This document shows positions 4,869 to 40,802 of a DNA stretch of 64,000 nucleotides, piece by piece. Position 1 is the stretch's first letter. The number at the start of each line of letters is the position of its first letter. The position numbers and the translations under genes were made by a program. The notes beneath the pieces are model-generated. The model did no database searches. It was not told where the DNA came from and was given only the letters and a program-made list of their open reading frames with translations. This DNA comes from Streptomyces mobaraensis NBRC 13819 = DSM 40847 (GTDB taxonomy: Bacteria; Actinomycetota; Actinomycetes; Streptomycetales; Streptomycetaceae): assembly GCF_017916255.1 (NCBI RefSeq), contig NZ_CP072827.1, forward strand, positions 2,232,001 to 2,296,000, in the 5' to 3' direction.

Positions 4869-4915
4869 CGTCATGAGTGTGCGGACGCGGTCGTGAAACA
4901 CCCGTCTGACGCGGC

Positions 4916-5389: not shown

Positions 5390-5749
5390 TGGCAGGCTCT
5401 CCTTCTTCGCATGACGAACCGGGAGTTCGCTGGATGCCGGACAAGCGTTTTCACGACGCCTTCCCTTGCGCAAGGCCGTCGCGTCATCTCGTCGCGCGCT
5501 TGCATATCGACGGTCCCCCGAGACGCCTGTACATAGCAACCTTCAATTTCCGCACTGACCGGAACCCACCCCTCCGCTGGCCGGATCGCTACGCCGACTC
5601 CGCCGTACCGCGACAGGACGCGGCGACGGAAGCGCCGCCGCCGACGGGCCGTTCGGCCTGTTCCACGCCCGGCTCGCACCTATCCACGCGGAGGGCCGCG
5701 CCGAGGCCCCGCGGCCGGAGGAGCGCGGAGGGACGACCGCCACCTGACC
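5390..5749. other. Gap without a supported gene
   Basis: About 360 bases upstream of the crystallin-like gene. The first part must hold its promoter. The right part reads like decayed coding sequence in line with the hydrolase remnant that follows, but I cannot align it to any frame over more than a few codons. Confidence 0.5.
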
Positions 5750-6142: not shown

Positions 6143-6208
6143 GCGGTGTCGGCGTCCGGTCCGTCGGGCGGGCGGGCGCCGATACCGCGGTGTTTCCGGC
6201 GTTCCGGG

Positions 6209-6589: not shown

Positions 6590-6781
6590 GACGTTCACTC
6601 CACTCTCGTTGAAGGAACACGCCCGCTGCCGGCACATGGGCAACTCCCGTACCGGCAGCAGGATTCCCGCAGAGCATCGCATTCCCGCGCCACCCGGCAC
6701 AGGTGCCAGCGGCGTACGGAACGGCGCCCCGCGCCTTGTCGCTTCGTAGGAAGAATCCAGGGCGCCGGGCGCGGCGTTCCC

Positions 6782-7612: not shown

Positions 7613-7680
7613 GTCTGCTCCTTGGTGCGTGCGGTTCGCGTGGTGCTGTCCCGCCACCCTACCCAGTGGGGATGCGAGAG

Positions 7681-7716
7681 CCCTGCCCTCGCCGCCGGCC
7701 GGCGGCGGGGGCAGGG
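7681..7716. terminator. Hairpin terminator of the HtaA gene
   Basis: Sixteen-base arms with one non-Watson-Crick position (7681-7696 and 7701-7716) around a GGCC loop, just after the HtaA stop codon on the minus strand and upstream of nadE. Confidence 0.7.
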
Positions 7717-7742
7717 CCTCTGCGCGGGTGGTCCGCCGGAGG

Positions 7743-9719: not shown

Positions 9720-10242
9720 GTGTCAACTCTCCTTAGGGGTAGTGCGGCCGGTGCCTGCCGGCACATGAAAGGTAGTCAGTCGAATGGATGCGCGGAAAGC
9801 GGAAAAGGGTCCCTCGCACGGCACATGAGTCATCACACGAGTCGCCGGCCGCGTCGCGCGCACCACCGGACGACTCTCCCGCCCCTGTCCGAGGTGGCCG
9901 GATTCGTCCCCTATCCGCCCGGCGGCTCGCCGACGCCCGGCGGAGCCGGCCGCCCGGGTACGCACACCCGCACGGACCCCGGCGCGGGCACCGGCGCGCG
10001 CATCGGCTCACGTCCGGGCTCCGCGCCGCGACCACAGCGGCTCCCCCGCGCTCCCGCGAAGGGAAGCGCGGCACGGGACAGGAGGGAGGACACCCGGCCG
10101 CCCTGATCACGTCGGCCCCCGCCCGTAACAGAAGCGACCCGACGGACTCAAGTGATCGATCTGCCGAGCGGGGCGAGATTTTGCCGCATGAGAGCAGGAT
10201 CACGTGCACTTTGGGGAACGACTCAGGCAAGCCTCAGATAAG
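9720..10242. other. Long divergent intergenic region between HtaA and efeO genes
   Basis: About 630 bases separate the two start codons (9719 and 10351). No conserved coding sequence is seen. The efeO side contains an iron box; no equally good box is visible next to the HtaA start. The rest is GC-rich and without clear repeats. Confidence 0.6.
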
Positions 10243-10256
10243 TTAGGTCGGCCTTA
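10243..10256. promoter_or_regulatory. Iron box (DmdR/IdeR-type operator) upstream of efeO
   Basis: TTAGGTCGGCCTTA, read on the other strand TAAGGCCGACCTAA, fits the right half of the actinobacterial iron-box consensus (TTAGGTTAGGCTNNCCTAA). It lies 95-108 bp upstream of the efeO start. The same core occurs before the siderophore-binding gene at 50552-50565. Iron-bound DmdR1/IdeR would repress here. Confidence 0.7.
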
Positions 10257-10350
10257 TTAGAGGCGCTTTTTCAGCCACACCTCCTCCCCTTGTGACGGAG
10301 ATGTGACGAAAAGGCAGGTATTCCGACTTCCGAGCACGCCTGGAGCCCGT

Positions 10351-11487
10351 ATGCGAGCCCTCCGCTCCTCCGCTGTCACCGTCGTCGCCACGGCGGCGGC
10401 CCTGGCCGTCGTCTCCGGCTGCGCAGAGAAGTCGGACGCCGGTGACTCCGACGCGATCAACGTGACCGCCTCCGACGACAAGTGCGAGGTCTCGAAGACC
10501 TCGTTCCCCGCCGGCCACGTGAAGATCAATATCCAGAACAAGGGCTCCAAGATCACCGAGGTGTACGTCTACGCCGCGGACGACCGGATCGTCACCGAGC
10601 GCGAGAACATCGGCCCGGGCACCAAGACCGAGATCACCGCGACGGTCAAGAAGGCCGGTGACTACGAGATCGCCTGCAAGCCCGGCATGAAGGGCGACGG
10701 AATCCGGCAGAAGATCACCGTCACCGGCGGCGACGGCAAGGAGAAGAAGACCGACCCGGCGCTCGACAAGGCCGTCGCGGAGTACCGCAAGTACGTCCAG
10801 GAGCAGGCCGACGCGACACTTCCGCTCGCGCAGAAGTTCGTCGACGCCGTCAAGGCGGGCGACCTCGACGCGGCGAAAAAGGCGTACGCCCCGTCGCGCC
10901 TCGGCTGGGAGCGGACCGAGCCCGTCGCCGAGTCCTTCGGTGACATCGACCCCAAGGTCGACGTCCGCGAGGACGGCCTGGAGAAGGGCCGGAAGTGGAC
11001 CGGCTGGCACAAGCTGGAGAAGTCGCTCTGGGACGGCAAGAAGATCACTGACGAGGACAAGGCCCTCGCCGACCAGCTGATGAAGGACCTCCAGGGCTGG
11101 CAGAAGCGCGTCGGCACCGCCGAGATCACGCCGACCAGCATGGCGAACGGCGCCAAGGAGCTCCTCGACGAGGTCTACCGGAACAAGATCACCGGTGAGG
11201 AAGAGCGCTACAGCCACACCGACCTGATCGACTTCGACGGCAACGTGCAGGGCGCCGAGAAGGCGTACGAGCTGCTGAAGCCGGTCGCCGGCAAGCAGGA
11301 CGCGGCGCTCGTCCAGGAACTGGACAAGCAGTTCGCGGCCGTGAAGAAGTCCCTCGACGACTACCGCGACGGGGACTCCTTCAAGTCCTACGACACGGTC
11401 GGCAAGGACGACCGCAAGAAGCTGTCCGACGTCGTCAACGCCCTCTCCGAGCCGCTGTCCAAGCTCGCCGGCGCCGTCGCGAAGTAA
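10351..11487 (+). CDS. efeO: Iron uptake lipoprotein EfeO (cupredoxin plus imelysin M75 domain)
   Basis: EfeO is the periplasmic/surface iron-binding part of the EfeUOB system. ATG 10351 with GGAG at -10 gives 378 residues. A lipoprotein signal ends in the lipobox VVSGC with Cys24. Residues 35-120 form a cupredoxin-like domain, with DDKCEVSKTSFPAG and GDYEIACKPGMKGDG as the copper/iron loop. The remainder is the helical M75 imelysin domain with the metal motif HKLE at 220-223. Order efeO-efeB-efeU with 15 and 27 bp gaps indicates one operon under the iron box. Confidence 0.95.
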   Translation: MRALRSSAVTVVATAAALAVVSGCAEKSDAGDSDAINVTASDDKCEVSKTSFPAGHVKINIQNKGSKITEVYVYAADDRIVTERENIGPGTKTEITATVKKAGDYEIACKPGMKGDGIRQKITVTGGDGKEKKTDPALDKAVAEYRKYVQEQADATLPLAQKFVDAVKAGDLDAAKKAYAPSRLGWERTEPVAESFGDIDPKVDVREDGLEKGRKWTGWHKLEKSLWDGKKITDEDKALADQLMKDLQGWQKRVGTAEITPTSMANGAKELLDEVYRNKITGEEERYSHTDLIDFDGNVQGAEKAYELLKPVAGKQDAALVQELDKQFAAVKKSLDDYRDGDSFKSYDTVGKDDRKKLSDVVNALSEPLSKLAGAVAK

Positions 11488-11502
11488 TCGGGGGAACGTG
11501 CG

Positions 11503-12978
11503 ATGAGCGACGTGAAGAAGAACGAGACGACTTCCGGCGACCGGGCCGAGAAGCCCACGGAAGCGAAGACGGACGCGAAGACGGGCCCGGAGGTGGGCCC
11601 GGAGGCGGACGTCACAATGGAAGCCGCGGCGGAAGCGAAGACCGAAGCGAAGACCGAGACCGCGGCCGCGGCCGGGGCCGAGACCGAAGCCAAGGCCGAA
11701 GCCAAGTCCGGGGCCGAGACCGAGGCGCACAGCCGCAGCCGCACCCCCTCCCGCCGTGCCCTCCTCGGCTGGGGCGGCGCCGGACTGGCGCTCGGTGCCG
11801 TCGCGGCCGGCGGTACGGCCGCGGCCCTGCGCCTCGGCGACGACGACAAGTCGCCGGCCGCCGCCGAGGGCGAGGCCGTGCCCTTCTACGGCCCCCACCA
11901 GGCCGGCATCGCCACGCCCGTCCAGGACCGGCTGCACTTCGCCGCCTTCGACGTGCGCACCGACGACCGCGAGCAGTTGATCAAGCTGCTGAAGGAGTGG
12001 ACGGCCGCCGCCGCCCGGATGACCGCCGGTCACGAGGTCGGCGAGGGCGCCATCAGCGAGAACGACGAGCTGCCGCCGGACGACACCGGCGAGGCGCTGG
12101 GCCTCAAGCCGTCCCGGCTGACGCTCACCTTCGGCATCGGGCCCACCCTGTTCGAGAAGGACGGCAAGGACCGCTTCGGCCTCAAGGGCCGCCGTCCCAA
12201 GGCCCTGATCGACCTGCCGCCGTTCCCCGGCGACAACCTGGACCCGGCCCGCAGCGGCGGCGACCTCTGCGTCCAGGCGTGCGCGGACGACCCGCAGGTC
12301 GCGGTGCACGCGATCCGCAACCTGGCCCGCATAGGCATGGGCCGGGTGGCGATCCGCTGGTCGCAGCTCGGCTTCGGCAAGACGTCCTCGACGACGCCGG
12401 ACGCCATGACGCCCCGCAACATGATGGGCTTCAAGGACGGCACCCGGAACATCGCGGGCACCGAGACCGACCGGCTCGACAAGTTCGTGTGGGTGGGCGA
12501 GAAGGACGCCGACGGCTGGATGGCCGGCGGCTCGTACCTCGTCGCCCGCCGGATCCGCATGCACATCGAGACCTGGGACCGCACCTCCCTGAAGGAGCAG
12601 GAGGACGTCTTCGGCCGCGACAAGGCCGAGGGCGCGCCGCAGGGCAAGCGGCGGGAGCGCGACGAACCCAACCTCCGGGTGCTGAAGCCCACCGCGCACG
12701 TCCGCCTCGCCCACCCCGACAGCAACGCGGGGGCGACCATCCTGCGCCGCGGCTACTCCTTCACGGACGGCACCGACGGCCTGGGCCGGCTCGACGCCGG
12801 ACTGTTCTTCATCGCCTACCAGCGCGACGTCCGGGACGGCTTCGTGCCGATCCAGACCCGGCTGTCGCGTTCGGACGCCCTCAACGAGTACATCCAGCAC
12901 GTGGGTTCGGCCGTCTTCGCCGTCCCGCCGGGCGTCCGCGACAAGGACGACTGGTGGGGCCGGACGCTGTTCGGCTGA
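11503..12978 (+). CDS. efeB: EfeB, Tat-exported DyP-type haem peroxidase
   Basis: EfeB is a haem peroxidase exported folded by the Tat route; it is thought to oxidise ferrous iron for EfeU and may remove iron from haem. The 491 residues begin with an unusually long (~75 residue) Glu/Ala/Lys/Thr-rich extension before the twin-arginine signal SRRALLGW at 83-90 and its hydrophobic core. The DyP distal motif GFKDGTRN is at 309-316 (Asp312), and the domain ends with the expected FTDGTDGLGRLDAGLFFIAY and a C-terminal DDWWGRTLFG. The extension would have to be tolerated by Tat or be removed by use of an internal start; no better ribosome site is seen inside it. Confidence 0.95.
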   Translation: MSDVKKNETTSGDRAEKPTEAKTDAKTGPEVGPEADVTMEAAAEAKTEAKTETAAAAGAETEAKAEAKSGAETEAHSRSRTPSRRALLGWGGAGLALGAVAAGGTAAALRLGDDDKSPAAAEGEAVPFYGPHQAGIATPVQDRLHFAAFDVRTDDREQLIKLLKEWTAAAARMTAGHEVGEGAISENDELPPDDTGEALGLKPSRLTLTFGIGPTLFEKDGKDRFGLKGRRPKALIDLPPFPGDNLDPARSGGDLCVQACADDPQVAVHAIRNLARIGMGRVAIRWSQLGFGKTSSTTPDAMTPRNMMGFKDGTRNIAGTETDRLDKFVWVGEKDADGWMAGGSYLVARRIRMHIETWDRTSLKEQEDVFGRDKAEGAPQGKRRERDEPNLRVLKPTAHVRLAHPDSNAGATILRRGYSFTDGTDGLGRLDAGLFFIAYQRDVRDGFVPIQTRLSRSDALNEYIQHVGSAVFAVPPGVRDKDDWWGRTLFG

Positions 12979-13005
12979 CGGCCCCGCATACGAAGGAGGC
13001 GCCGC

Positions 13006-14055
13006 GTGTTCGGCAACTACCTGATCGGCCTGCGCGAGGGACTGGAGGCCAGCCTGGTCGTCTGCATCCTCGTCGCCTACCTGGTCAAGAGCGGTCGCAG
13101 GGACGCCCTGCGGCCGGTCTGGCTCGGCATCACCGCGGCCGTGCTGCTCAGCATGGGCTTCGGCGCCGTGCTCCAGTACGGCTCGCAGACCATGACGTTC
13201 GAGGCGCAGGAGACGCTGGGCGGATCGCTGTCCGTCATCGCCGTGGGCCTGGTGACGTGGATGGTCTTCTGGATGCGGCGCACCGCGCGGCACCTGAAGA
13301 AGGAGCTGCACGGCAAGCTGGACGCGGCGCTGGCGATGGGCACCACCGCACTGGTGGTGACGGCGTTCCTGGCCGTGGGCCGGGAGGGCCTGGAGACCGC
13401 GCTGTTCATCTGGACGGCGGTGCAGGCCACCGACGACGGCGTACGGCCGCTGGTCGGCGCGCTGCTCGGGCTGCTCACGGCGGTGCTGCTGGGCTGGCTG
13501 TTCTACCGGGGCGCCCTGAAGATCAACCTGGCGAAGTTCTTCACCTGGACCGGCGGGATGCTGATCGTGGTGGCGGCGGGCGTGCTCGCGTACGGCTTCC
13601 ACGACCTCCAGGAGGCCGACGTCCTGCCGGGGCTGGGCTCGAAGGCGTTCGACATCAGTGAGCAGGTGCCGGTCGACAGCTGGTACGGGACGCTGCTGAA
13701 GGGCGTCTTCAACTTCCAGCCGGACCCGACGAAGCTCCAGGTGTGGGTGTGGGCGCTGTACCTGGTCCCGACCCTGGTGCTGTTCTTCCGTCCCGGTCGC
13801 ACCGGTAAGGTGGCGCCGTCCCGGGCAGCCACCGCTGCCAGCGCAGCCACCGAGGAGTCCAAGGCCGATGCGACGTCGGACGCGCCCGCGTCTTCCGCGC
13901 CTTCCGCGTCGTCTGCCGCGCCTTCTCCGTCGTCCGCCGTGGCCGGTGCCGTCCCGGGTGCTCCCGCTGCTCCTGCTGCCGGCGCTGCTGGCGGCGACCG
14001 GGTGCGTGACGGTGCACGGCGAGCGGGAGATCGTCCCGGCGGTGGAGAAGGCTGA
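13006..14055 (+). CDS. efeU: EfeU, FTR1-type high-affinity iron permease
   Basis: The membrane permease of the EfeUOB iron importer. GTG 13006 follows GAAGGAG. Two REGLE iron motifs occur, at 10-14 (LREGLEASL) and 126-130 (GREGLETAL), each within a membrane helix; seven helices are predicted by eye up to about residue 265. The core ends near PTLVLFFRPGRTGK. After that comes an Ala/Ser/Pro-rich tail of ~75 residues, of which the last 62 are encoded by DNA that also encodes the start of the next gene in another frame. The tail has no counterpart in EfeU that I know of. Confidence 0.93.
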   Translation: MFGNYLIGLREGLEASLVVCILVAYLVKSGRRDALRPVWLGITAAVLLSMGFGAVLQYGSQTMTFEAQETLGGSLSVIAVGLVTWMVFWMRRTARHLKKELHGKLDAALAMGTTALVVTAFLAVGREGLETALFIWTAVQATDDGVRPLVGALLGLLTAVLLGWLFYRGALKINLAKFFTWTGGMLIVVAAGVLAYGFHDLQEADVLPGLGSKAFDISEQVPVDSWYGTLLKGVFNFQPDPTKLQVWVWALYLVPTLVLFFRPGRTGKVAPSRAATAASAATEESKADATSDAPASSAPSASSAAPSPSSAVAGAVPGAPAAPAAGAAGGDRVRDGARRAGDRPGGGEG

Positions 14056-15109: not shown

Positions 15110-15841
15110 TCAGCGGCCGATCGGCCAGGCCGCGTGGTGCTCGTGGTCCGGCCGGTCCCCCGCGTACTGCGCGCACGCGTCCGTCAGCGTCTCCAGCAGC
15201 GTCAGCGGATCCGGCAGCGGCCGTTCCGGTCCCAGCAGCCAGGCCACGTACGCGTCGTCGCCGGGGAGGCGGGAGGGCGGCAGGAGGACGTAGCTGCCGC
15301 GGCAGTGCCAGCGCAGGCCGGGGTGTTCGTCGAGGGTCTCGGGGTGGCAGTCGAGCTCGCAGGGCCACCACTCGTCCTCGTCGTCCGGGGTGCCGCGGGT
15401 GGCGGTGAAGAAGAGCATGCGGTCGGGGGCGACGGTGGCGACGGGCCCGACCTCGACGCCGGCGGCCGTGAGCCGGTCCAGCGCCTTGCGGCCGGCCTCG
15501 GCGGGGACGTCCAGGACGTCGTGGGCCATGCCGGTGGCGGTGACGAAGTTGGCCTCGGGCTGGGCCCGGAGCCATTTGGCGACCTTCTCCGGGTCGGTGG
15601 TGGCGAGGGTCTGCCAGGCGAAGGAGACGGGGTGCCGGCCCGGGGTGGGACAGCCGATGCGTTCGCACGAACACCCGTAGCCGGAGGGGTGGGCGGCCGG
15701 GGCCAGGGGGAACCCCGCGGCGGCCGCGGCCAGGAGCAGTTCCTCGCGGGCGGCACCGGTGGCCGCCCCCGCACCCGTATCGCCGCCCGCTCCGCTCCTG
15801 GGGCGGCGCAGCCACTGGGAGAATCTGCTCTTGCGTTCCAT
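15110..15841 (-). CDS. Bifunctional DNA primase/polymerase (prim-pol) N-terminal domain protein
   Basis: 243 residues. After a basic start (MERKSRFSQWLRR) comes the archaeo-eukaryotic primase-like pattern used in plasmid and actinobacterial prim-pol proteins: AAAGFPLAPAAHPSGYGCSCERIGCPTPGRHPVSFAW, where the Cys/His set CSCxxxGCxxPGxHP resembles a small zinc site, followed by NFVTATGMAHDVLDVPAE with the acidic pair. There is no helicase or second domain, so it is a stand-alone form common in Streptomyces chromosomes. Catalytic ability cannot be judged from this alone. It is flanked by the efe operon's end and a TetR gene. Confidence 0.8.
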   Translation of the reverse strand: MERKSRFSQWLRRPRSGAGGDTGAGAATGAAREELLLAAAAAGFPLAPAAHPSGYGCSCERIGCPTPGRHPVSFAWQTLATTDPEKVAKWLRAQPEANFVTATGMAHDVLDVPAEAGRKALDRLTAAGVEVGPVATVAPDRMLFFTATRGTPDDEDEWWPCELDCHPETLDEHPGLRWHCRGSYVLLPPSRLPGDDAYVAWLLGPERPLPDPLTLLETLTDACAQYAGDRPDHEHHAAWPIGR

Positions 15842-15993
15842 CTATCCCCTCACTTCGACCGCGGTCTCCGGTCAATGCTGCCACCATCCGGCGCCCGGCG
15901 TGACCGTCGGGCGCATCCGAGGGTGTGACACCTACCGCTCCGGCGGCCGGGCCGGGGCGCCGAGGGGCGTCGGCGGGGCCCGGCGGGCGGGAT

Positions 15994-16599
15994 TCAGCGG
16001 GGGGTGAGCCCCCGCAGGGTGATCTCGACGACGCTGTCGGCGTAGGCGTGGGTGAGGGGCTGGGTGCGCAGCATCCAGCGGTGGGCGAGCGGGCCGACGA
16101 GCAGTTCGAGGGCGATGCGCGGGTCCACGTCCGGGTCGGCCTGCCCGGCCTCCTGGGCGGCGCGCAGCCGGGTGACGTAGAGCTGGAGCTGCGGTTCGAG
16201 CACCGCCCGGGTGAACTGGGCGCAGAGGTCCGGGTTGGCGATGCTCTCGGCGGCGAGGGCGCGTGAAGGGGCGTCGTAGCGCGGGCTGTTGAGTTCGTCG
16301 ACGGTGGCGCGGAGGACGGTCTTGAGGTCGGCTTCCAGGTCGCCCGTGTCGGGCAGTTCGTGGTGCCCCTCGGCGGCGTCCTCGCCGAGGGCGACGAAGG
16401 CGTCCAGGAGGACGGCGGCCTTGGAGGGCCACCAGCGGTAGATCGTCTGCTTGCCGACGCCGGCCCGGGCGGCGATGGCCTCGATGGTGAGCCGCTGGTA
16501 GCCGGTCTCGCCGGTGAGTTCGAGGGCGGCTTCCAGGATCGCGCGACGGGAACGCTCGCTGCGGCGGTTGGCGTCGGGCGGGGTCTTGGTGGTGGCCAT
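15994..16599 (-). CDS. TetR-family transcriptional repressor
   Basis: 201 residues from ATG 16599. The N-terminal helix-turn-helix is complete: SRRAILEAALELTGETGYQRLTIEAIAARAGVGKQTIYRWWPSKAAVL. The C-terminal ligand domain has SPRYDAPSRALAAESIANPDLCAQFTRAVLEPQ, seen in the AcrR-like group with a TetR_C-type dimer interface. Two perfect inverted repeats (16626-16642 and 16693-16709) lie between it and the divergent small gene at 16759 and are its likely operators, giving autorepression and control of the small gene. The effector is unknown. Confidence 0.92.
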   Translation of the reverse strand: MATTKTPPDANRRSERSRRAILEAALELTGETGYQRLTIEAIAARAGVGKQTIYRWWPSKAAVLLDAFVALGEDAAEGHHELPDTGDLEADLKTVLRATVDELNSPRYDAPSRALAAESIANPDLCAQFTRAVLEPQLQLYVTRLRAAQEAGQADPDVDPRIALELLVGPLAHRWMLRTQPLTHAYADSVVEITLRGLTPR

Positions 16600-30194: not shown

Positions 30195-30812
30195 CCAGAT
30201 GGATAGATGGCGTAGGTGACGGTGTCCATGAACGGATCGGCTTCCCGACGGCCACGGGCCCCCGGCCCTGTCGGGGTCTGCCCTCTCGGCCGACGCGGCC
30301 CGCTCGGCCGGCACGACTCTCCCGGCCGACGCGGCCGACGCGGCCCACTCGGCCGGCTCGGCCCCATCGGCCGACTCGCCGCCCGTCTCCAGGGCTCGCG
30401 CCGTCCCCTCCGACCGCGCGAGCCCCGAAGTCCAGTGTCCCGCCCGCCCCGTGCGGCGGCCGGCCGGCTCCGCCGGGCGGTCCGGGACGTCCAGGGCTTC
30501 CGGAGTGCCCTGGACTTCCGGGGGATTCTGGGCTTCCGGGGCGTCCAGGTCGGACGGACGGCGGCGGGTGCGGCGACGGTCGCGACGGTGGTGTACGAGT
30601 CGGGGGTACGGGGCCCGGTGGTGAAGCCGGTGGTGCGGGGGCCGGTGCGGGAGTCGGCGGTGCGGGAGCCGGTGGCCGACGGGTTTGCGCGGAGAGGGCC
30701 GGTCAGGCTCACGTCGGTCACAGGGCTCACGTCGGTCACTGGGCGCCCACCAGGCCCTCACCCCGTCCCGCCAAGGGTGCCGCCGGCCCCTCCCCCGCCC
30801 GGGCTCCCGCGG
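30195..30812. other. Gap of about 620 bp made of degenerate direct repeats
   Basis: It lies downstream of both the CbrC-like gene and the giant gene pair (convergent). It contains loose repeats of CGGCCGACGCGGCC (30280-30370), of CCAGG-GCTTCCGGGG (30490-30550), of GTGCGGGAG-CGGTG (30630-30680), and a duplicated GGCTCACGTCGGTCAC at 30706-30741. Open frames exist on both strands but have no signal of selection. I see no gene. Confidence 0.6.
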
Positions 30813-33800
30813 TCACTCGCGGAGGACGATCCGGCCCAGCGGCGTCACGAGCAGCCCGAACCGGTCCGCGTGGATCAGCCGGCGGGCCACCGGCACCGCC
30901 GTGCCGCCACTGGCGGGAGTCACCGTGCCCGTCGCCGTCGAGCTGTCCGTCGCGTAGACCTCGTGCTCCTCCACGACCAGCCGGTACTCCGAGAGCGGCA
31001 GCAGTTGCGGCGCCGGTGGCACCAGGTCGCCGGACCAGACGAACGAGGACCCCTTGGGGACGCAGGTGAGTTCGAGGACCGTGCCCGTCCCGGCCCAGTC
31101 CAGGTCGCCGCTGCCGACGGCCCGCCGCTCCACGGAGGCGAGGACGCGGCGGCTCGCCGCCATCGCGGCCTGACCGCTGCCGACCCGTTTGCCCAGGGCG
31201 TTCGGCGCGACCGGGCCGCTCAGCTCCAGCCGGACGGCGCCGGCGGACGTCATGGTCGCGGTGACCGTCCGGTCGGGCAGCAGTTGGAGGAAGTCCGCGG
31301 TCACGACCTTGGACAGGTGCAGCGGGTCCACGGAGTAGGGCTGGTAGCGGGCCAGGGCCAGGCGCAGGTACGGGAAGTAGGCCGTGGCACCGGCGGCCGG
31401 CCCGAGGTCGACGTCGATATCGCAGGTCCACAGCCGCAGTTCGTGATCGTAATCGGGGGCGAACGCGGCGACCGAGGCGGTCGCGGGCGCGCCGCCCACC
31501 GGTTCGGCGAGCACCCGCCCGTCGGCGGTGAGCGCGGCGCCCGGGAAGTTCGCCGGGGCGAGCCGGGGCGGGGCCGTCGGGTCGTCCCAGACCGGGTCGG
31601 TGGCGCAGCGGGTGACGAGTTCGTCGGGCAGCGGGGCCGCGGCACCCGGGCCACCGGTTCCGGTGCCGGGATCGAGGACGACGGCGAGGAGTTCGTCGTC
31701 GCCGGACGAGAACCAGGGGCGGCGCAGGTGCACCCGGAAGCCGGCGTGCCGGCGGGTGCGGGTCACCCGGTGCCGTTCGTGGTCGACGGTCTGCTCCCAG
31801 CGGACGGTGGGGACGAGGTGGCTGACGTCGGGCGGTTCGGGGCGGCGGGAGCTGGGGACGTGCCAGCCGTGTCCGTCGGGCCCCGCGCTCGCCGGGCCCT
31901 TGCGGGTGATCAGGTCGGTCCGGTCGGTGATGGCCGGGTGGAAGTACTCGCGGAACCGGGTGGTCGCGGTCGGCGTGTAGGTGACGGCGCGGTGCAGGGT
32001 GTCGCGGAACTCGTGGCGGAGGCCGAAGAGGGAGTGGTCGTCCTCGTAGCGTTCGAGGGTGAAGTGGCCGATGCGCGCGTGCCGTTCGGTGCGCTGGGGT
32101 GCGTCCTGGGCCACGTCGTCCGTCCACTCCTGCCAGCTCGCGTCGATGTCGACGCGTCCGGTGCTGCGGGCGTGGCTGTGGAGGCGTCCGGTGAAGGGAG
32201 TGAAGGTCTGCTCCGCCTCGCGGGGGAAGGTGAGCGGGCCGAGTTCCGGTGGGGCGAGCGGTTTCTCCACGGCGTGGACGAGGGTGAGTTCGACCCAGGG
32301 GGTGATCATCCAGTTCTCGCCGTCGGCCGCCGCGGCGGTCAGCTCGTCCTTCTTCGCCTGCGGCAGTCCGGTGGTCGGGTCCGGGTCGTTCCAGAGCTTG
32401 GAGGCGGTCAGCAGTTCCCAGGCGCGGAAGAGGGTGAGGTCGGCGGGGTCGAGGCGGCAGCTCATCCGGACGGTGGCGACGGTGGCCTTGGGCAGCCGGA
32501 CGGTCAGTTCGCGCTCGAGGAGTCCGCTCCAGACGGGCGGCCCGTCCCCTTCGACGATCTTCAGTCGCAGCGGCCGGGCCTGCGGCCAGGGCCCGGGGAA
32601 GTCGTAGGTGGCGTTGGGCGGTGCCCCCGGCAGGCCGCGCAGGGAGACGCCCCGGGCCGGGACGTCCGGCAGGTACGGCAGCAGGAGCTGCGCGCCCCGG
32701 TGGACGACGTACTCGCCGGGCCGGAGGCCCTGCCCCCGGGGGACGGGGAGTTCGGTCGGCGGTTCGGTGTCGTGGACGTCGTGTTTCGCGACCTTGATCT
32801 CACCGAGGAGTTTGAGGTCGGTGGTGACGTCGGGGTTCTCGGGAAGGCTGACGACGGTGTCCAGGTAGCTGCCGGCCTCGCGGGACGCGGCGGTGAAGTA
32901 GCGGCGGCGGACCAGGTCCGCCTTGTCGGGCCCGAACACGGTGTCGTACATGCCGTGTTGCTCGGCCGTCTGGAGCGGGGTCTTGGGTGGGCTGACGTGC
33001 CGTTCGTCCCAGGCGCGGTAGCGGCGGTCCAGCCCGTCGACGGGCGATTCCGCCCGGTGGTCGGGGACCTGGGTGTTGCGCGTCGCCGCCCAGGCGTCGG
33101 GCGGCACCGGCGTCCCGTCGTCCCGCACGGTGCTGCGGATGACCAGCCGCGGTTCCGACTCGCCTTCCAGGAAGGGCCACCGGGGCACGAGCGCGGGCGG
33201 CGGCACGGGCTCCCAGCGCCGGTAGGTGACGGGCGCGGAGGCCGTGCCGTCGGGGGTGTCGGCGTCGAGGCCGGGACCGTTGCCGGCGAGGTCGCAGAGC
33301 CGGGCGCGCAGCCGGTACGTCCGCCCGAAACGCAGGGCGGGCAGCGACCCCTTGACCGGGCGGAACGCGGTGTCCAGCGGGAAGACCGGCGACACCTCGG
33401 GCGCGGGCACCCGGGGCCGGTCGTCCGGCCCGAGGGTCCGGCCGGGCGGCGGCGCGGCCAGACTCCAGCCGTGCCAGCCGCAGAGGGCCTGGTGGACGTA
33501 GAGCTGGTTGTCGTCCCTCTTGTCGTGGGTGACGGCGGTGGCCTTGACGTGTCCCTCGTCAGGGGCGACGGCCAGCGGCACGACGGGCTGCCCCGGGCGG
33601 CGGATCGCGTAGCGGCCGGTCCGCGCGCACAGCGGGCGCCAGACGGTGACGGGCGCGGCGGCCTCTCCGCCGGTCCCCGCCTCCGCCGCCTCCTCCGCCG
33701 CTTGTCCCTCCGCCGTGTGCTCCTCCGCCTCCGCCGGCTCCTCGACCACGCCCACGTCGACGCGGTAGCCGCGGACGAGGTCGGAGGCGTCGAGGACGGC

Positions 33801-35255
33801 GACGGCGGGCGTCTGGCCCGCCGGGCCGACGCCGGCCGTGTGCCGGGCGTCGGCCTCCATCCGGTCGGCGAGCTCCGCGTCCCGGCCCTCCCGGAAGACG
33901 GTGAGTCCGGCGCCGTGCAGGGCGGGCGGGGCCGTGCTGTCGGGGGCGGCGGACGCCTTGGGGTCGCTCATCGCGGCGAGCGCCTGGTCCACGATCCGGG
34001 AGAACTCCACGAACTTCATCGCGGCCCCGTCCACGTCCAGGTCGGTGACCAGGATCCCGTCCCCGCCGAGACGCAGCATCCGCCGTCCGTACGGGCCGTC
34101 GTCCGGGGCGTACGGCTCGAAGCGGCTCCCGGTGACGTAGCGCAGGTCCGTCCACGGCCGCAGGCCCTCGTCGTCGTTGAGCCGTCCCTGGTCCGCGGTG
34201 AACCGGACCCGCGCCTGCCAGCGGTCGGCGAGCCCGGGCGGCGGGGTGACCAGCAGGTCGACGGCGAGGCCGAAGCGGCGCAGGAGCTCCGGGTAGTCGG
34301 CGAGCAGGGCGCAGGCGGTGTGGAAGTCGACGTCGGGTGCCGTGGGCGGGGGTGGTGTGGGCACCTGGGGGCGGTCGTAGAAGCGGTACGCCTCCGCGAG
34401 GTTGTGGGCGGCGGCGTTGCCCCGGTAGGCGTCGCTGGTGCGGTCCATGAACCGGGGGCGGAACGGGTTGGCGGCGACGGCCGAGGGCCCGCCCGTGCCG
34501 TGTTCGAGCAGCTGGTCGAGACCGGGGTAGGAGGCGGCGACACCACGGGCCAGCTCCAGCAGGGGTGGGGGGAGCGGGGCCCGGAGGTCGCCGGTGGTCG
34601 GGTGGTCCCAGGTGGCGGGCGGCGCGACGGCGGCGCCCTCGGGCCCGGAGGCGGCGGCGCCCTCGGCCCCAGAGGCGGTGGCGCCCTCGGCCCCGGATGT
34701 CGTAGCGCCCTCGGCCCCGGAGGGGAAGGCTCCCTCACCCCCGGACGGAAAGACGCCTTCGCCGCCCGTCGGAAGGGTGCCCTCCCCGCCTGTCGGAAGG
34801 GTGCCCTCCCCGCCCGACGGGAAGGCCCGGCGGCGGGCGGTGGCCGTGGCGACGGCCTCGTAGAGGGTGCCGATCCGGTCGTGGACGTCCCGGGCGGGAT
34901 AGGAGCGCAGGGTGGGCGGCACGGCCGCGGCGGCGGCGAAGGCGCCGGCGGGCGGGCGTACGGGGGAGGTGGTCGGGAACAGGGCCTTCCACAGTCCGCT
35001 GTCGGCGGGCGGGTAACGGTCCTGCCGGGGCGCGACGGGCACAGCGGTCCCGGGCCCGGTGGTGCCGGGCGCGCGGAACTCGATCCGCAGCGCGGCGATG
35101 TAATGCCCGAGGGTGTCGGGCCAGTCGTGGAAGGCGGGGAAGGCGTCGAGCGTGGTCCCCCCGGTGAGGCGGGGGCTGACCAGGACGGTGAGGCGGAGCC
35201 GGCCGTCGGCGGCGGTCCCGTCGGGCAGTACGGTCCACCGGATCGTCTCGGGCAT
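30813..35255 (-). CDS. Giant protein B of an uncharacterised two-gene locus
   Basis: 1480 residues from ATG 35255, 4 nt after the stop of the upstream giant gene, so the two are translationally coupled. No signal peptide, membrane helix or domain that I can name. It begins MPETIRWTVLPDGTAADGRL, then LRLTVLVSPRLT. Residues ~142-212 are a degenerate 8-residue repeat of the type GGEGTLPT. The middle has recurrent short Trp/Pro phrases (RYRAWDERHVSPP, AEQHGMYDTVFGPDK, YFTAASREAGSYLDTVVSLPE), and the last third is beta-rich (RHAGFRVHLRRPWFSSGDDE, LLAVVLDPGTGTGG), ending FGLLVTPLGRIVLRE. Composition and codon use match the host genome. It is cytosolic by sequence and may form a large assembly with protein A. 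Function unknown. Confidence 0.85.
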   Translation of the reverse strand: MPETIRWTVLPDGTAADGRLRLTVLVSPRLTGGTTLDAFPAFHDWPDTLGHYIAALRIEFRAPGTTGPGTAVPVAPRQDRYPPADSGLWKALFPTTSPVRPPAGAFAAAAAVPPTLRSYPARDVHDRIGTLYEAVATATARRRAFPSGGEGTLPTGGEGTLPTGGEGVFPSGGEGAFPSGAEGATTSGAEGATASGAEGAAASGPEGAAVAPPATWDHPTTGDLRAPLPPPLLELARGVAASYPGLDQLLEHGTGGPSAVAANPFRPRFMDRTSDAYRGNAAAHNLAEAYRFYDRPQVPTPPPPTAPDVDFHTACALLADYPELLRRFGLAVDLLVTPPPGLADRWQARVRFTADQGRLNDDEGLRPWTDLRYVTGSRFEPYAPDDGPYGRRMLRLGGDGILVTDLDVDGAAMKFVEFSRIVDQALAAMSDPKASAAPDSTAPPALHGAGLTVFREGRDAELADRMEADARHTAGVGPAGQTPAVAVLDASDLVRGYRVDVGVVEEPAEAEEHTAEGQAAEEAAEAGTGGEAAAPVTVWRPLCARTGRYAIRRPGQPVVPLAVAPDEGHVKATAVTHDKRDDNQLYVHQALCGWHGWSLAAPPPGRTLGPDDRPRVPAPEVSPVFPLDTAFRPVKGSLPALRFGRTYRLRARLCDLAGNGPGLDADTPDGTASAPVTYRRWEPVPPPALVPRWPFLEGESEPRLVIRSTVRDDGTPVPPDAWAATRNTQVPDHRAESPVDGLDRRYRAWDERHVSPPKTPLQTAEQHGMYDTVFGPDKADLVRRRYFTAASREAGSYLDTVVSLPENPDVTTDLKLLGEIKVAKHDVHDTEPPTELPVPRGQGLRPGEYVVHRGAQLLLPYLPDVPARGVSLRGLPGAPPNATYDFPGPWPQARPLRLKIVEGDGPPVWSGLLERELTVRLPKATVATVRMSCRLDPADLTLFRAWELLTASKLWNDPDPTTGLPQAKKDELTAAAADGENWMITPWVELTLVHAVEKPLAPPELGPLTFPREAEQTFTPFTGRLHSHARSTGRVDIDASWQEWTDDVAQDAPQRTERHARIGHFTLERYEDDHSLFGLRHEFRDTLHRAVTYTPTATTRFREYFHPAITDRTDLITRKGPASAGPDGHGWHVPSSRRPEPPDVSHLVPTVRWEQTVDHERHRVTRTRRHAGFRVHLRRPWFSSGDDELLAVVLDPGTGTGGPGAAAPLPDELVTRCATDPVWDDPTAPPRLAPANFPGAALTADGRVLAEPVGGAPATASVAAFAPDYDHELRLWTCDIDVDLGPAAGATAYFPYLRLALARYQPYSVDPLHLSKVVTADFLQLLPDRTVTATMTSAGAVRLELSGPVAPNALGKRVGSGQAAMAASRRVLASVERRAVGSGDLDWAGTGTVLELTCVPKGSSFVWSGDLVPPAPQLLPLSEYRLVVEEHEVYATDSSTATGTVTPASGGTAVPVARRLIHADRFGLLVTPLGRIVLRE
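34618..34830. repeat. Coding 24-bp repeat in giant gene B
   Basis: About nine copies of a degenerate 24-bp unit encode GGEG(T/V/A)(L/F)P(T/S) and, further on, SGAEGATA-type octapeptides. The copies nearest 34780-34810 are nearly identical, which suggests recent slippage in a flexible linker. Confidence 0.8.
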
Positions 35256-35259
35256 GGCG

Positions 35260-38200
35260 TCAGCTCACTTCCGCGAAGGCGGTGCAGTACTCGTCGACCG
35301 GATCGCGCGGCAGCCCGGTCACCGGATCCGGATAGGGCTCCATCATCTGGGCGAACGTGGGGGGCCGGACGGCGTCGTCGGCCGCGGCGAGCGGGCTCGG
35401 GGAGTGTCCGGCGCCCACGAACCGCTTCTCGCATTCGATGGTGACCGACTGGGACCAGAACCCGATGTGGACGCTGATCGTGATCCGGGCCCGGCCGTAG
35501 ACGGTTCCGCTGCCGCTGTCGTAGGTGAGTTCCAGGAGGAGTTCGATGGAGGCGGAGACGATACCGAGCACGTCGACCTCGCCGCGGGCGCGGAAGTAGC
35601 CGGTGATCCGGCATTCGGAGGTGGCGAGTTCGAGCCGGAAGTAGATGCCGGCCATCACGGACAGGCTTCCGCTCGCCACGCCGAGGTTCATGGAGACGGC
35701 GGCCCCGAACTCCAGGGCGGCCTCCAGGACGGCGACCTGCTTGGGCGTGATGACGATGCCGAAGAAGCCGCCGCCGCCGAGCAGGGACACGGTGAGCCGG
35801 AAGGGGGCCTGGCGGCTGCAGAAGGAGAAGCCGATCTCCAGCGGCCGGCCGATGAACGGGAGGTCCAGATAGGCGTCCAGGCGGATGTTCTCCAGGCTGA
35901 AGACGCCGATCGCGAGGCTGGGGAGGGGGATGCCGTAGCGGGCGGTGATGCCGGTCGACGTGACCTGGATGCCGGGCGGGTCGCTGAAGCCGTCGATGGG
36001 GATGAGCTGCCGCAGCGTCTCGACGAACGACAGCGGGCCGATGAACTCGACCTTCCGGAAGCCGACGTCGATGTCCGGCTTCTCGCCCGCGCGCATCCGG
36101 AAGCGGACGCGGTCGAAGGTCAGCCGCATGGCCTGGAAGGAAGGGATGAGGACGAGGTCGAACTTCTCCAGCGAGCACGTGACGTCGGCTCCGGAGGACA
36201 CGTCCGGCCGCAGCGAGCCGCGGAGGTCGACGACGAGGGAGAGCCGCCCGACGGTCCGGGTGCCCTCGGTGTGCGGGACGAAGACCGGGTCGCCGGTGTC
36301 GGGCCAGGGCTTGATCTGCGGGCTCCACTCGATGCGGGTGCTGACCGTCTCGGGGAGCTTCAGACCGCGGGCGGCCTGCTGGAGCGCGTCGCGGAGGGAC
36401 GGCAGTTGTCCGGCGGCGGTGGTCCAGGTGTCCACCTGTTCCCGGACCCGGGTGAGCAGCGTGCGGAGGCCGGGGTCGGCGGTGGTGGGGAGGGCGGTGA
36501 GGAGGTTGGTGAGGGCGGTGGAGAAGGCGGCGAAGGCGTCGTCGATCTGTTGCAGGGTGACGGGCGGGTCGGTGGCGGGCGTGACGGGCGACGACGGCGG
36601 GCCGGTGGCGGGTGTGGCGCGTGGTGGCGGCGGGCCGGCGGGAGGCGCGCCTGCCACGGGCGGCCCGGCACCCACCGTCGGACCGCCCGCCGGGCCGGCC
36701 GCCGGACCGCCCGCGCGATCGCCCGCCGGACCAGCCGTCGGGTCTCCCGTCGGACCGGCCCTCGGCGGCGCCCCAGCGGGCCCGGGTTCCGCCGGAGCAC
36801 CGCCATCGCTCCCCGGCGGTGCGGCGGTGGGAAGCGAGGGGTGGGAGAGGTGTTCGGCGAGGTAGGCGGCGACGAGTTCGGCGAGCCGCCGGGCGGTGTC
36901 GGCCACCTGCCGGGCGGCGGGCGGCAGGCCGGGCGCGGCGTTGTCGGCCAGGTCGCGGACGCGGCGCAGGTCGCCGAGGAACCCGGTGACCGAACTGACG
37001 GTCTGGGTGATGAAGTTGGGGACGTGCAGGGCCGGCAGCGGATCGCCGGGGAGGATGTGGCGGATGACGTCGGCGAGGGAGAGGACCCCCAGGAAGTCGA
37101 TGCCGAGGGTGCCGAAGAAGTCGGCGGGGTCGAACTCCCCGCCGGCGATGCGGTCCAGAGCCGTGGCGACGGGCCCGGTGCCGGAGACCGGGCCGGTCGC
37201 GCGGGACAGCCCCGCCACGTCGAAGCTGGGCGCGACGAGCGCGCCGGAGCGGTCGCGCCGGCTGTCGAAGTCCATGGTGAGCGCGGGGCCCCCGGTGTGC
37301 AGCAGGCTGAGGAAGACCTCCCCGGGGTTGCCCTTCCTGGCCCCCTGGGTCACCGCCGCGAAGCCGGACAGGGCGTACCGCTTCGCGTACGTCACGGGCA
37401 CGGTGGCGGTCGCGTCGCCGGTCAGCGCGCCGACGGCGGGGACGGCGGCGGTGGCCCAGCTCAGCTGCGGGATGAAGTGTGCCTCGCCGGGCGCCGGATG
37501 GGCCGGGTCGGGGACGGCGAGGGCGGGCGGCGCGGCGGCGCCCCAGACGAGGTGGGCCACGTCGACACTCGTGTCGTCCGGCGTGACGGGTGGTGCCAGG
37601 GCCACGGACTGGCCGAGCAGCGCGGCGCTGGTGAAGGGGGACGGATCGGTGACGGCGGCGGCCCGGGAGCCGTCGGGCGCCGGCGCCGGCGGCTGGGACC
37701 GCCTGTTGTACTCGGCGAGCACTTCGGCGAGTTGCTCCCCCCGGCTCAGATGCTCGGGGACGAAGAGCAGCGGGGTGCGGAACTCGACGACCCGCCCCTG
37801 GTGGTCCACCGCCGTGGCCTTGAACAGGAACGGCTCCTCGGTGGCCGTCGCCGGGAAGAACCAGGTGGAGGTGGGCGGGTCGGGGAGGTGGACGAGGTTC
37901 GGCGTGACGAGGGTGTCCAGGCGGACGCTGGTGAACGGGAAGAGGAGGTTGGTGAGGTCGGCGGCCGGGTCGCCGTCCCTGGGCAGCGGCCGCCCCGGGT
38001 CGTAGGTGCGCAGGGGCTGCCGGACGAGCACGTAGAAGCGCTGGAAGAGGAAGGCGGTCCGCGGGTCCTTGAACTTCCGTTCCGTGACCTGCACCACGGC
38101 CGCGCGGTGCCCGAACGGGCACAGGTACCCCTCGTGCATCACCCGCACGTAGTGGTCCCGGCCGAGGGTGGTGTGCTGCCGCCAGTCCGACAGGTCGATG

Positions 38201-39240
38201 CCCGCGGGCCGTTCGGGCCACTGGCCCACGCTCTCCAGCCAGCCGCCGAGCGCCGACAGCATCAGCGTCCGGGCTCTCACCGGCACCGGCGTGAACGGCT
38301 TGCCCTCCACCGTGGACAGCCCGTCGCGCGCGGTGAGTTCGACGAGATCGGTGCGGTCTCCCGGGGTGAGCGGCAGCCGCGTCACCTCGGGAGCGGGCGT
38401 TCCCGGGTCTCGGTCGCGGTTCCACACGGCGCGGACCGTGCCCCCGCTCAGCCGGGTGTGCCACAGCGCCACCCGCTCGCCCGGCCCGGGTTCGTCCACC
38501 GCGTCCCGGTGGATCCAGCGGGCCTGCCGCGGGGGCGACAGCAGGAGCCTGTAGGGCAGTTCGATGCCGGTGCGGGGGCGGGTGGGGTCGGCGAGGGGGT
38601 TCTCGGGGGTACGGGGGCCGGGGGCGGCGTCGGACGCCTCGCCTCCGGAGGCGGTACCGGTGACCGCGGGCTCGGCGCCGGCCGCGGCGGCGAGGGTGGC
38701 GTCCACGCCGTACCGGGCGGTGAGCTGGGCGGTGGTGCGCAGCAGCCGTACGAGCGCGAGGGCCCGGACCGTCGGGTCGCCCTCGGCGCCCCCGCCCGTT
38801 TCCTCACCCGTTTCCTCGGCCGCTCCCCCGCCCGCTCCCACGCCGGGCGGCCGGACCGCGACCACCGCCACCGCCGGATCGGCCTCCCGGGCCGCGTCGA
38901 CGACGCGCAACGGCAGCGCGCGCATGGCCGCCAGCAGCCCCGCCTCGGAGTACCCGACCACGTCCTGCGCCCCGACCTCGAAGACGAGGACGCTCCGCCC
39001 GCTGACGAGCGAGCCGACGGGCACGTCCCGCGGATCCGGGTCCGTCCCCTCCTCCAACAGCGCGTGCTCCGCGACGTGCTGCGGCCCCAGCGTCACGACG
39101 AGCAGTCCGTCCTGCTGCGGATCGGCGCGGATCAGCCGCCGACTCCCCGGCCGGTCATCGAACTTCAGCCCGACGAACCCGAAGTTCAGGTCCAACAGGT
39201 CGGTCCCGCGCAGTACCCGGATCGGTGCCGGAGTGCTCAT
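35260..39240 (-). CDS. Giant protein A of an uncharacterised two-gene locus
   Basis: 1326 residues from ATG 39240, with AGGGGG upstream. No signal peptide and no known domain. N-terminal part (1-115): LLDLNFGFVGLKFDDRPGSR and LLVVTLGPQHVAEHALLEEG. An acidic Gly/Glu linker follows, then a conserved-looking core (~230-480) with ELPYRLLLSPPRQARWIH, DHYVRVMHEGYLCPFGHR at ~362-379 and FLFQRFYVLVRQPLRTYDPG. A Pro/Ala/Gly linker spans ~803-880. Residues ~980-1290 are long alternating hydrophobic strands (SLENIRLDAYLDLPF, LGGGGFFGIVI, LSVMAGIYFRLE), as in a large beta-structure. It ends DPVDEYCTAFAEVS. I have the impression of large hypothetical proteins in other phyla with similar phrases, but cannot verify this here. 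Role unknown; it is the first gene of the pair. Confidence 0.85.
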   Translation of the reverse strand: MSTPAPIRVLRGTDLLDLNFGFVGLKFDDRPGSRRLIRADPQQDGLLVVTLGPQHVAEHALLEEGTDPDPRDVPVGSLVSGRSVLVFEVGAQDVVGYSEAGLLAAMRALPLRVVDAAREADPAVAVVAVRPPGVGAGGGAAEETGEETGGGAEGDPTVRALALVRLLRTTAQLTARYGVDATLAAAAGAEPAVTGTASGGEASDAAPGPRTPENPLADPTRPRTGIELPYRLLLSPPRQARWIHRDAVDEPGPGERVALWHTRLSGGTVRAVWNRDRDPGTPAPEVTRLPLTPGDRTDLVELTARDGLSTVEGKPFTPVPVRARTLMLSALGGWLESVGQWPERPAGIDLSDWRQHTTLGRDHYVRVMHEGYLCPFGHRAAVVQVTERKFKDPRTAFLFQRFYVLVRQPLRTYDPGRPLPRDGDPAADLTNLLFPFTSVRLDTLVTPNLVHLPDPPTSTWFFPATATEEPFLFKATAVDHQGRVVEFRTPLLFVPEHLSRGEQLAEVLAEYNRRSQPPAPAPDGSRAAAVTDPSPFTSAALLGQSVALAPPVTPDDTSVDVAHLVWGAAAPPALAVPDPAHPAPGEAHFIPQLSWATAAVPAVGALTGDATATVPVTYAKRYALSGFAAVTQGARKGNPGEVFLSLLHTGGPALTMDFDSRRDRSGALVAPSFDVAGLSRATGPVSGTGPVATALDRIAGGEFDPADFFGTLGIDFLGVLSLADVIRHILPGDPLPALHVPNFITQTVSSVTGFLGDLRRVRDLADNAAPGLPPAARQVADTARRLAELVAAYLAEHLSHPSLPTAAPPGSDGGAPAEPGPAGAPPRAGPTGDPTAGPAGDRAGGPAAGPAGGPTVGAGPPVAGAPPAGPPPPRATPATGPPSSPVTPATDPPVTLQQIDDAFAAFSTALTNLLTALPTTADPGLRTLLTRVREQVDTWTTAAGQLPSLRDALQQAARGLKLPETVSTRIEWSPQIKPWPDTGDPVFVPHTEGTRTVGRLSLVVDLRGSLRPDVSSGADVTCSLEKFDLVLIPSFQAMRLTFDRVRFRMRAGEKPDIDVGFRKVEFIGPLSFVETLRQLIPIDGFSDPPGIQVTSTGITARYGIPLPSLAIGVFSLENIRLDAYLDLPFIGRPLEIGFSFCSRQAPFRLTVSLLGGGGFFGIVITPKQVAVLEAALEFGAAVSMNLGVASGSLSVMAGIYFRLELATSECRITGYFRARGEVDVLGIVSASIELLLELTYDSGSGTVYGRARITISVHIGFWSQSVTIECEKRFVGAGHSPSPLAAADDAVRPPTFAQMMEPYPDPVTGLPRDPVDEYCTAFAEVS

Positions 39241-39479
39241 GCCGCCCCCTAACAGCTGCCCATCCCCCTGGATACTCCTGTGGGAGCGGCAGGTGTATGA
39301 CCCGAACGGGTGATGGCGGAACGCGGTACTCCGAATAGGTGATACCCGGACAGGGCCCTTCCCATCGGGAGGAAGGAGGCGAATTCTCCCCTCGAAGGGC
39401 GGACCGGGCAGCACGCACGCGGCGCCGGTGCCACCGGCTGCCGGAAACGGCACCCCCCGCCCACGAAGGGGGTACGACA

Positions 39480-39815
39480 ATGTCCACATCCTCACGACGC
39501 CGGGCGGCGAGACCGGCCCTGGTCCTCGCGGCGGCCCTGGCCCTGACCACCGGCCTGGCCACCACCGCCCCGGCCGCCTCGGGCGAGTTCATCTACCAGA
39601 GCCGCGCCACCGGGTTCACCCGCACCTTCGTGGACCCGATGAACAACGTCTGTCTCTTCTTCGAGTTCGGCGCCAACAAGATGGTCAACAGCACGAACCG
39701 GACGGCCCGGGTGTACCTCAGCACCGTCTGCGGCGAAGGCGGTTCCGCGGACATCCCGAAGGGCGGTACGAAGACGGCCCTGCTCGACGACTTCCACAGC
39801 GTGAAGTTCCTGTAG
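39480..39815 (+). CDS. Small secreted protein, unknown function
   Basis: 111 residues from ATG 39480 with AAGGGGG upstream. A basic start (SRRRAARPALVLAAALALTT) and an APAAS end form a signal peptide of about 35 residues. The mature ~75 residues, GEFIYQSRATGFTRTFVDPM, then NNVCLFFEF and STVCGEGGSADIPKGG, contain two Cys likely to form a disulphide and several beta strands. Small antimicrobial-like or inhibitor-like secreted proteins of Streptomyces look similar in form, but I know no family. It is divergent from the giant gene pair (239 bp between starts). Confidence 0.75.
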   Translation: MSTSSRRRAARPALVLAAALALTTGLATTAPAASGEFIYQSRATGFTRTFVDPMNNVCLFFEFGANKMVNSTNRTARVYLSTVCGEGGSADIPKGGTKTALLDDFHSVKFL

Positions 39816-39892
39816 CCGGCCGGGCCGGGGCCGTCACTCGGGTGACGGCCCCGGCCGACCCCGGCCGACCCCGCCCGCCGGCCCCGGGCCCC

Positions 39893-40690
39893 TCAGAGCT
39901 CGGTCACCACCACGTCCACCGCCCACGGCCGCCCCGCCTTCTCCGGAGCGCCGCCCTCCACCACGTACCCCAGGTCCCGCAGCGCCTCGACCAGCTCACC
40001 GGGACCACCCGGCTCCGCACCCGCGACCAGCAGATCCCGCACCATCCGCCCCTTGGTCGCCTTGTTGAAGTGGCTGACCACGGACCGCTTCTCGACCCCG
40101 TCCACCACCCGCGACTGCAGCACCCGCACCGTCACCGTGCGCTCCGCCACGCCCCCCTTCGGCTTCCAGGCCGTCGCGTAGGCGGCCGAGCGCAGGTCCA
40201 GGACGAGGCCCTCCCCCGCGGCGGCGGGCAACGCCTCCGCCATCGGCCCGCGCCAGAACGCGCCGAGCGGGCCCAGCCCCGGCAGCTTCACCCCCATCGA
40301 ACAGCGGTAGGAGGGGATGGCGTCCCCGACGCCCACCGCACCCCACAGCCCGGAGAAGACCAGCAGCGACCGCTCGGCGGCGCGCCGGGCGGTCGGCGGG
40401 AGCGTGGTCAGGCCGAGCGCGTCGTAGAGGACGCCGGTGTAGATCTCGGCGGCGGGCCGGGTGCCGGCCGTCCGCAGCCCGGCGTTCTTGGCGACCTCCC
40501 CGCGCAGCCCCTGGCTCAGCCCCAGCACCTCGGCCGCCTTCTCCTCGTCGCCCGAGCACAGCTCCACCAGCTCGGCGAGCACGGCGTCCCGCGCGGCGGC
40601 GAGCCCCGGGAGGGCGAGGGCGCCGGTGTCCACCGGGGCCCCGGTCCCGCCGGTGGCCTTCCCCTCGGACGGCGGCAGCAGCACGAGCAC
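39893..40690 (-). CDS. yaaA: Peroxide stress protein YaaA (UPF0246)
   Basis: 265 residues from GTG 40690, chosen because AAGGAG lies just upstream. An ATG at 40720 would add ten residues. The family core is present: LLPPSEGKA at the start, YTGVLYDALGLTTL, LLVFSGLWGAVGVGDAIPSYRCSMG, FWRGPMAEAL, VLDLRSAAYATAW and VSHFNKATKGRMVRDLL. In E. coli YaaA lowers free iron during peroxide stress and its structure shows a DNA-binding fold. It is divergent from the RNB ribonuclease gene (112 bp between starts). Confidence 0.93.
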   Translation of the reverse strand: MLVLLPPSEGKATGGTGAPVDTGALALPGLAAARDAVLAELVELCSGDEEKAAEVLGLSQGLRGEVAKNAGLRTAGTRPAAEIYTGVLYDALGLTTLPPTARRAAERSLLVFSGLWGAVGVGDAIPSYRCSMGVKLPGLGPLGAFWRGPMAEALPAAAGEGLVLDLRSAAYATAWKPKGGVAERTVTVRVLQSRVVDGVEKRSVVSHFNKATKGRMVRDLLVAGAEPGGPGELVEALRDLGYVVEGGAPEKAGRPWAVDVVVTEL

Positions 40691-40802
40691 GATCGGTTCT
40701 CCTTGGGTATCCGTGGGCATCCGTTCTTACGGCCCCGGCGAGCCTAACGCCGTACGCCACACTCACCGCGCCGCCCGCCCGGCCCGCCCCTACGCTCGGA
40801 TC

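Follow-up and report, generated by a model that had tools for sequence, protein, structure and literature searches.

An undescribed pair of giant genes in Streptomyces mobaraensis and its relatives, tentatively read as the two subunits of an envelope-directed assembly

What kind of system is encoded by two giant genes that lie side by side and resemble no described family? This question is raised by a 64,000-nt stretch of the genome of Streptomyces mobaraensis NBRC 13819 = DSM 40847 (contig NZ_CP072827.1, positions 2,232,001 to 2,296,000), referred to here as the window, in which two adjacent genes encode protein A (the first gene) and protein B (the second); coordinates follow the numbering of the window (Table 1). 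Our study confirmed the A–B pair and found no description of it in any library that was searched. We tentatively favour, at somewhat less than even confidence, a reading in which A and B are obligate partners in an assembly, as yet undescribed, that is directed to the cell envelope. This reading applies at the level of the family; the S. mobaraensis version carries no recognised signal.

A gene pair inherited together

Protein A returned no matches in Pfam, NCBIfam, PHROGs or PADLOC, and for B these libraries yielded only DUF7701 at chance level (E 4.5). Neither protein matched a PADLOC component model, and PDB sequence searches with both gave a best E value near 0.9, with no match beyond chance, which upholds the statement of the initial annotation that neither has a recognisable domain. 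When diverse members were screened, one of 19 A proteins matched Baculo_PEP_C (2.2e-5) and none of 18 B proteins matched a family model. PDB profile matches of A1 to coiled-coil and designed-bundle chains fell on the helical middle region and were set aside as composition-driven. Homologues at E ≤ 1e-3 numbered 335 for A among 7983 scored candidates, and 363 were found for B among 7988. Their names, taken from the best 120 of the 335 and the best 120 of the 363, were 'hypothetical', 'uncharacterized' or absent, save for two B homologues (P0141 and P0177) with the UniRef label 'Baseplate protein J-like'; the closest A homologue among the matches listed was 99 % identical and came from Streptomyces mobaraensis. 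Two plasmid records name A 'apolipoprotein A1/A4/E domain-containing'; for one rhizobial A this name was assigned by PGAP. No literature on these proteins was found in open-licence PubMed Central articles, including by six homologue locus tags or accessions. The shared plan once proposed for A and B does not reflect homology, which was ruled out by profile–profile comparison (hhalign probability 0.6 %).

A search of 84,980 species genomes with A only gave 174 loci, and in all of the best 80, which were used here, B was directly behind A, as judged by tblastn or gene calls. These 80 were combined with L082-L091, the plasmid loci L092-L105 and L120-L145 into a set of 130 loci, all picked via A except L091, which was picked via a weak B match. 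Both genes were present in 124 of the 130, drawn from several phyla, on the same strand and with B downstream of A every time, the order never being reversed; the median distance from the last A-domain to the first B-domain was 20 nt, so tight spacing is general. Among 396 Actinomycetota genomes there were 14 matches to A and 13 to B, with both genes present and adjacent in 12 genomes and the three unshared matches marginal (E 3.5e-4 to 5.4e-4). The distance matrices of A and B were correlated at r = 0.977 over 71 loci (equalled in 0 of 999 permutations) and at 0.969 over 45 non-Streptomyces loci. This strict pairing and co-inheritance indicates that A and B are one functional unit, in line with the initial annotation, for which co-occurrence in a fixed order across phyla would support a two-component system; neither membership of a known family nor singly occurring members were seen, save for six loci in which B was unrecognised.

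These six loci are L090, L091, L100, L101, L102 and L103. L090 and L091 are marginal matches and probably not family members, L102 is without annotation and L103 holds a short A-like fragment. In L100 and L101, the gene behind A is a giant one (2569 or 2128 aa) that was not recognised; these are rhizobial plasmid variants (L100:8353-23556 and L101:8810-22200) adjoined by SIR2 or AAA/endonuclease genes. L091 has two large minus-strand genes side by side that are much alike in size (4454-8734 and 9386-13294). The first carries one FN3-type motif match to a broad B profile (3.7e-9, two sequences searched), and the gene next to it showed no match to A. The two could possibly form a more distant sister system. 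Separately, B of Streptomyces philanthi is broken into three open reading frames (ORFs) (L014:11610-15560), which suggests that it is decaying in that lineage, and one Streptomyces genome has an ORF, transposase-like by eye, between A and B (L143:10867-12201).

A was found in 22 of 199 sampled Streptomyces species genomes (7 in a long form, 15 in shorter forms), in 5 of 349 genomes from the phylum of Rhodovulum L037 and in 10 of 247 from the phylum of L038, the last two counts each including the centre genome, chosen for having the pair. Lengths of A range from approximately 900 aa (Streptomyces short form) to 3311 aa (Ruegeria), and the linked pair spans 8–15 kb with sizes of up to 3311 + 1899 aa. 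Plasmids, phage records and viral contigs were searched with A only: 20 plasmid records matched, A was present in none of 50,697 phage records and no relative of A was confirmed among the viral contigs.

Export addresses and predicted structures

Tat-type (twin-arginine translocation) signals were defined by a twin-arginine motif with a hydrophobic stretch free of charges behind it, using a script together with reading by eye. By this definition, A has a Tat-type signal in 21 of the 130 loci (L038, L044, L073, L085, L092, L093, L096-L099, L120-L125 and L127-L131) and no recognised signal in 109. The script itself flagged 21 loci, of which L007 and L009 were rejected, the motif lying in an upstream frame extension, and L093 and L129 were added by reading. 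The signals occur in 10 of 11 Kapabacteria-type loci (the exception being L126), in Alphaproteobacteria and in some actinobacterial members, including one on a Streptomyces plasmid; S. mobaraensis A has none in its annotated N-terminus or upstream frame. Among the 120 A proteins listed, the script flagged five, one of which (P0067) was judged false, and a lipobox-like Cys context was found in P0106, P0108 and P0118, and by eye in P0110 and P0120. The script flagged an export signal on none of the 120 B homologues listed. A second kind of address was seen in some Mycobacteriales, where A of Nocardia, Mycolicibacterium and Williamsia has two to three LysM modules and no recognised signal (by Pfam for L050, L068 and L069, by eye for L077). 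Further peptidoglycan-binding modules read by eye (L068 A; L050:16857-17783) were not confirmed by Pfam and were not used. On the conjugative S. meliloti plasmid pC, an annotated tatA of 55 aa lies 49 nt behind B (L093:22661-22828).

The AlphaFold model used for A, that of homologue P0005, ends in long strands whose residues alternate as in an amphipathic, porin-like sheet, and this C-terminal module is the best conserved portion of the protein; the model thus agrees with the beta-structure that had been suspected in the last third of A. A Foldseek search listed MTP (E 2.6e-4), ApoB100 and vitellogenin among porins, these three lipid transfer proteins being weak matches with TM-scores of approximately 0.1. 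The porins CymA and OmpG were compared by fold only and have no sequence relation to A; in contrast to them, the sheet is the C-terminal module of a far larger protein that also occurs, with no recognised signal peptide, in Gram-positive Streptomyces. An outer-membrane beta-barrel implies a signal peptide and a didermic host; Streptomyces are monoderm, and no signal was recognised on S. mobaraensis A. In the model of B, which covers residues 281-1480, Ig/FN3-like sandwiches follow one another in a row (predicted local distance difference test 86.3, predicted TM-score 0.69). Such a chain is reminiscent of contactins, fibronectin and the MG domains of complement and alpha-2-macroglobulin, but B matches no FN3 or MG family model by sequence.

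The export addresses on A in distant relatives are the reason for reading the pair as an unrecognised cell-envelope device. Tat prefers folded cargo, and an address on A that was never detected on B, combined with this preference, points to co-export as a complex (hitchhiking, PMC4273604). The predicted amphipathic sheet suggests membrane contact and the predicted sandwich chain a binding arm, and it is these three hints together that place the family, provisionally, at the envelope. In the mechanism that we infer, A would provide the address, which differs by lineage (Tat alone, Tat with a lipobox, LysM modules or none that was recognised), and the contact with membrane or cell wall, through a C-terminal sheet that could enter a membrane or rest on its surface. 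Signal-less B would bind folded A in the cytoplasm, leave the cell together with it by Tat hitchhiking and then project as a long Ig/FN3-like arm, whose target may be a ligand, another cell or some surface. The known Tat hitchhiker heteromers HybOC and PaoABC resemble Tat-type A–B members in having one signal-bearing subunit, a signal-less partner and adjacent genes. However, A and B differ from them in size, no cofactor-enzyme domains were recognised in them and most members, including that of S. mobaraensis, show no Tat signal.

Competing explanations

The main rival, which we consider unlikely, is a large cytosolic A–B complex acting as a scaffold or assembly in Streptomyces and most other members, with Tat export a later specialization. 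Tight coupling and co-inheritance suit this explanation, as does the lack of a recognised signal at 109 of 130 loci, S. mobaraensis among them. It is opposed by the Tat signals of several lineages (Kapabacteria-type, Alphaproteobacteria and a Streptomyces plasmid), by the LysM modules on some signal-less A proteins and by the strongly amphipathic character predicted for the A sheet. The cytosolic location given by the initial annotation is therefore doubtful for the family, whereas the signal-less S. mobaraensis version stays compatible with it.

It is improbable, in our view, that the pair is an antagonism device, that is, an exported or lysis-released two-component toxin in which the A sheet forms a pore and B binds the target. 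The amphipathic strands and the patchy, partly plasmid-borne distribution would fit, as would scattered neighbours: an M35 endopeptidase in Ruegeria L096, a hemopexin-repeat gene adjoining the pair in L086, a subtilase and a tyrosinase gene with DUF7868 in Williamsia L069, and, as the second gene past B in L127, a protein that weakly matches T4-lysozyme and DipM/LytM. However, toxin families were not matched, the PDB gave nothing for genes of L142 and L132 that looked lysozyme-like by eye and were not used, and no conserved immunity gene or payload was found among 121 immediate neighbours. These 121 were scanned out of 147 candidates, 24 near-identical-context Streptomyces loci having been excluded beforehand. 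No Pfam family or PADLOC model occurred in more than 3 of them, which rules out a common accessory gene for the pair. Furthermore, the ratio of nonsynonymous to synonymous substitution rates (dN/dS) was 0.31-0.39 for A and B against relatives L008 and L011, and for L001, a more distant relative, it was 0.40 and 0.44. Neighbouring genes gave 0.17-0.43 in 13 of 14 comparisons, bracketing the A and B values against L008 and L011, the fourteenth being 0.75 for a pair of 31 % identity. A and B thus resemble their neighbours and give no sign of arms-race evolution.

Less probable again is a lipid carrier or lipid-coat protein, in which the A sheet and helices would hold lipid in the manner of MTP, ApoB and vitellogenin. 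These proteins combine helices with large amphipathic sheets, as predicted for A, and appear in the Foldseek list among the porins; the PGAP 'apolipoprotein' name on a rhizobial A and lipase-type neighbours (Zn phospholipase C and patatin) point in the same direction. The TM-scores of the three are very low, however, A has no sequence match to them and the lipase-type genes are confined to single loci. An anti-phage defence system, one of the functions first contemplated for the pair, is highly improbable: SIR2, N-6 methylase, HsdR-type and dpdE/dpdF genes beside rhizobial plasmid members are hints from the neighbourhood, but PADLOC matched neither protein, its matches among neighbours elsewhere are scattered (at most 3 of 121), no nuclease, NTPase or sensor domain was found and Tat export fits poorly with intracellular defence. 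An encapsulation device found no support. A contractile injection system part or other phage-tail derivative, despite the baseplate label on P0141 and P0177 and a Phage_tail_X match on the LysM-bearing A of L050, is hardly credible, given that the contractile sheath (PF04984) is missing in S. mobaraensis and in 9 of the 12 genomes positive for A/B (the other three having matches, two over the cut-off), that PHROGs gave no match, and that searches with A yielded neither a phage record nor a confirmed viral-contig relative.

The S. mobaraensis locus and its wider meaning

Within the window, an ORF check reproduced the gene lengths, strand and spacing first described (Table 1), and the 3′ gap is indeed rich in repeats. 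Third-position GC is 0.94 for both genes, typical of genuine Streptomyces genes, and A is present once in the genome, whose only contig, of 7.57 Mb, gave one match to it. The Pro/Gly/Ala-rich linker of A is missing from homologue P0005 and the low-complexity linker of B differs among homologues. To say that no membrane helix is present was slightly too strong, in that a single hydrophobic stretch of A, at residue 708, is borderline (Kyte–Doolittle mean of 1.74 over 19 residues). The divergent promoter was not borne out, as a scan of 38900-39800, which does not span all Streptomyces promoter types, detected no sigma-70-type site. Upstream of A, a region with divergent ORFs (39428-40747, plus strand) contains a small exported-looking protein.

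Table 1. Features of the A–B locus, in window coordinates
Feature	Position	Strand	Remarks
Protein A	35260..39240	minus	1326 aa; first of the pair; no signal peptide or known domain recognised
A Pro/Gly/Ala-rich linker, repeat-encoded	36563..36773	minus	tandem repeats; inside the predicted helical middle region
A C-terminal amphipathic beta module (predicted)	35416..36336	minus	approximately residues 969-1275, mapped from P0005 model residues 779-1085
Gap between A stop and B start	35256..35259	minus	4 nt
Protein B	30813..35255	minus	1480 aa; second of the pair; beta-sandwich row in the model of residues 281-1480
B low-complexity linker, repeat-encoded	34628..34826	minus	tandem repeats, 24-nt units
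Repeat-rich intergenic gap 3′ of the pair	30195..30812		tandem repeats 30280-30744; outside the putative machine

The claim that there is no third gene holds in S. mobaraensis, but some other lineages have added partner genes. Kapabacteria-type loci (L038, L044, L073, L120-L125 and L131) have two conserved, secreted-looking extra genes, C in 10 of 11 loci and D in 9 of 11. Gene C has an N-terminal 'QPPPNQL' region, with RCC1-type repeats in L124. Gene D encodes approximately 650 aa ending in an aromatic residue, had no Pfam match or name in 65 homologues and, only by its look, may be an outer-membrane barrel. Clusters in Nocardia and Williamsia (L050, L069 and L077) comprise LysM-bearing A, B, a subtilase and a hydrolase-like gene; over 105 loci, a subtilase motif lay near the pair in 7, a raw count. 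Behind B in two short-form loci, members of a small protein family without a name were also observed (L086:14244-15197, and in tandem in L087:14781-15680 and 15690-16496).

In summary, this pair is spread over several phyla, occurs in approximately one in ten of the Streptomyces species sampled and lacks a family model in the libraries searched, which makes it a gap of unusual size in what is charted of bacterial proteins. That it represents a new class of two-protein envelope machine in several phyla, with interchangeable addresses on A, a sheet inserted in the membrane, an Ig-chain B exported as folded cargo and two further secreted partners in Kapabacteria-type members, is rather unlikely in its entirety. 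Should Tat export A and B in folded form among the giant members, the complex would rank as a candidate hitchhiker cargo of very large size, and if the A sheet inserts into membranes it would represent a new membrane-active architecture.

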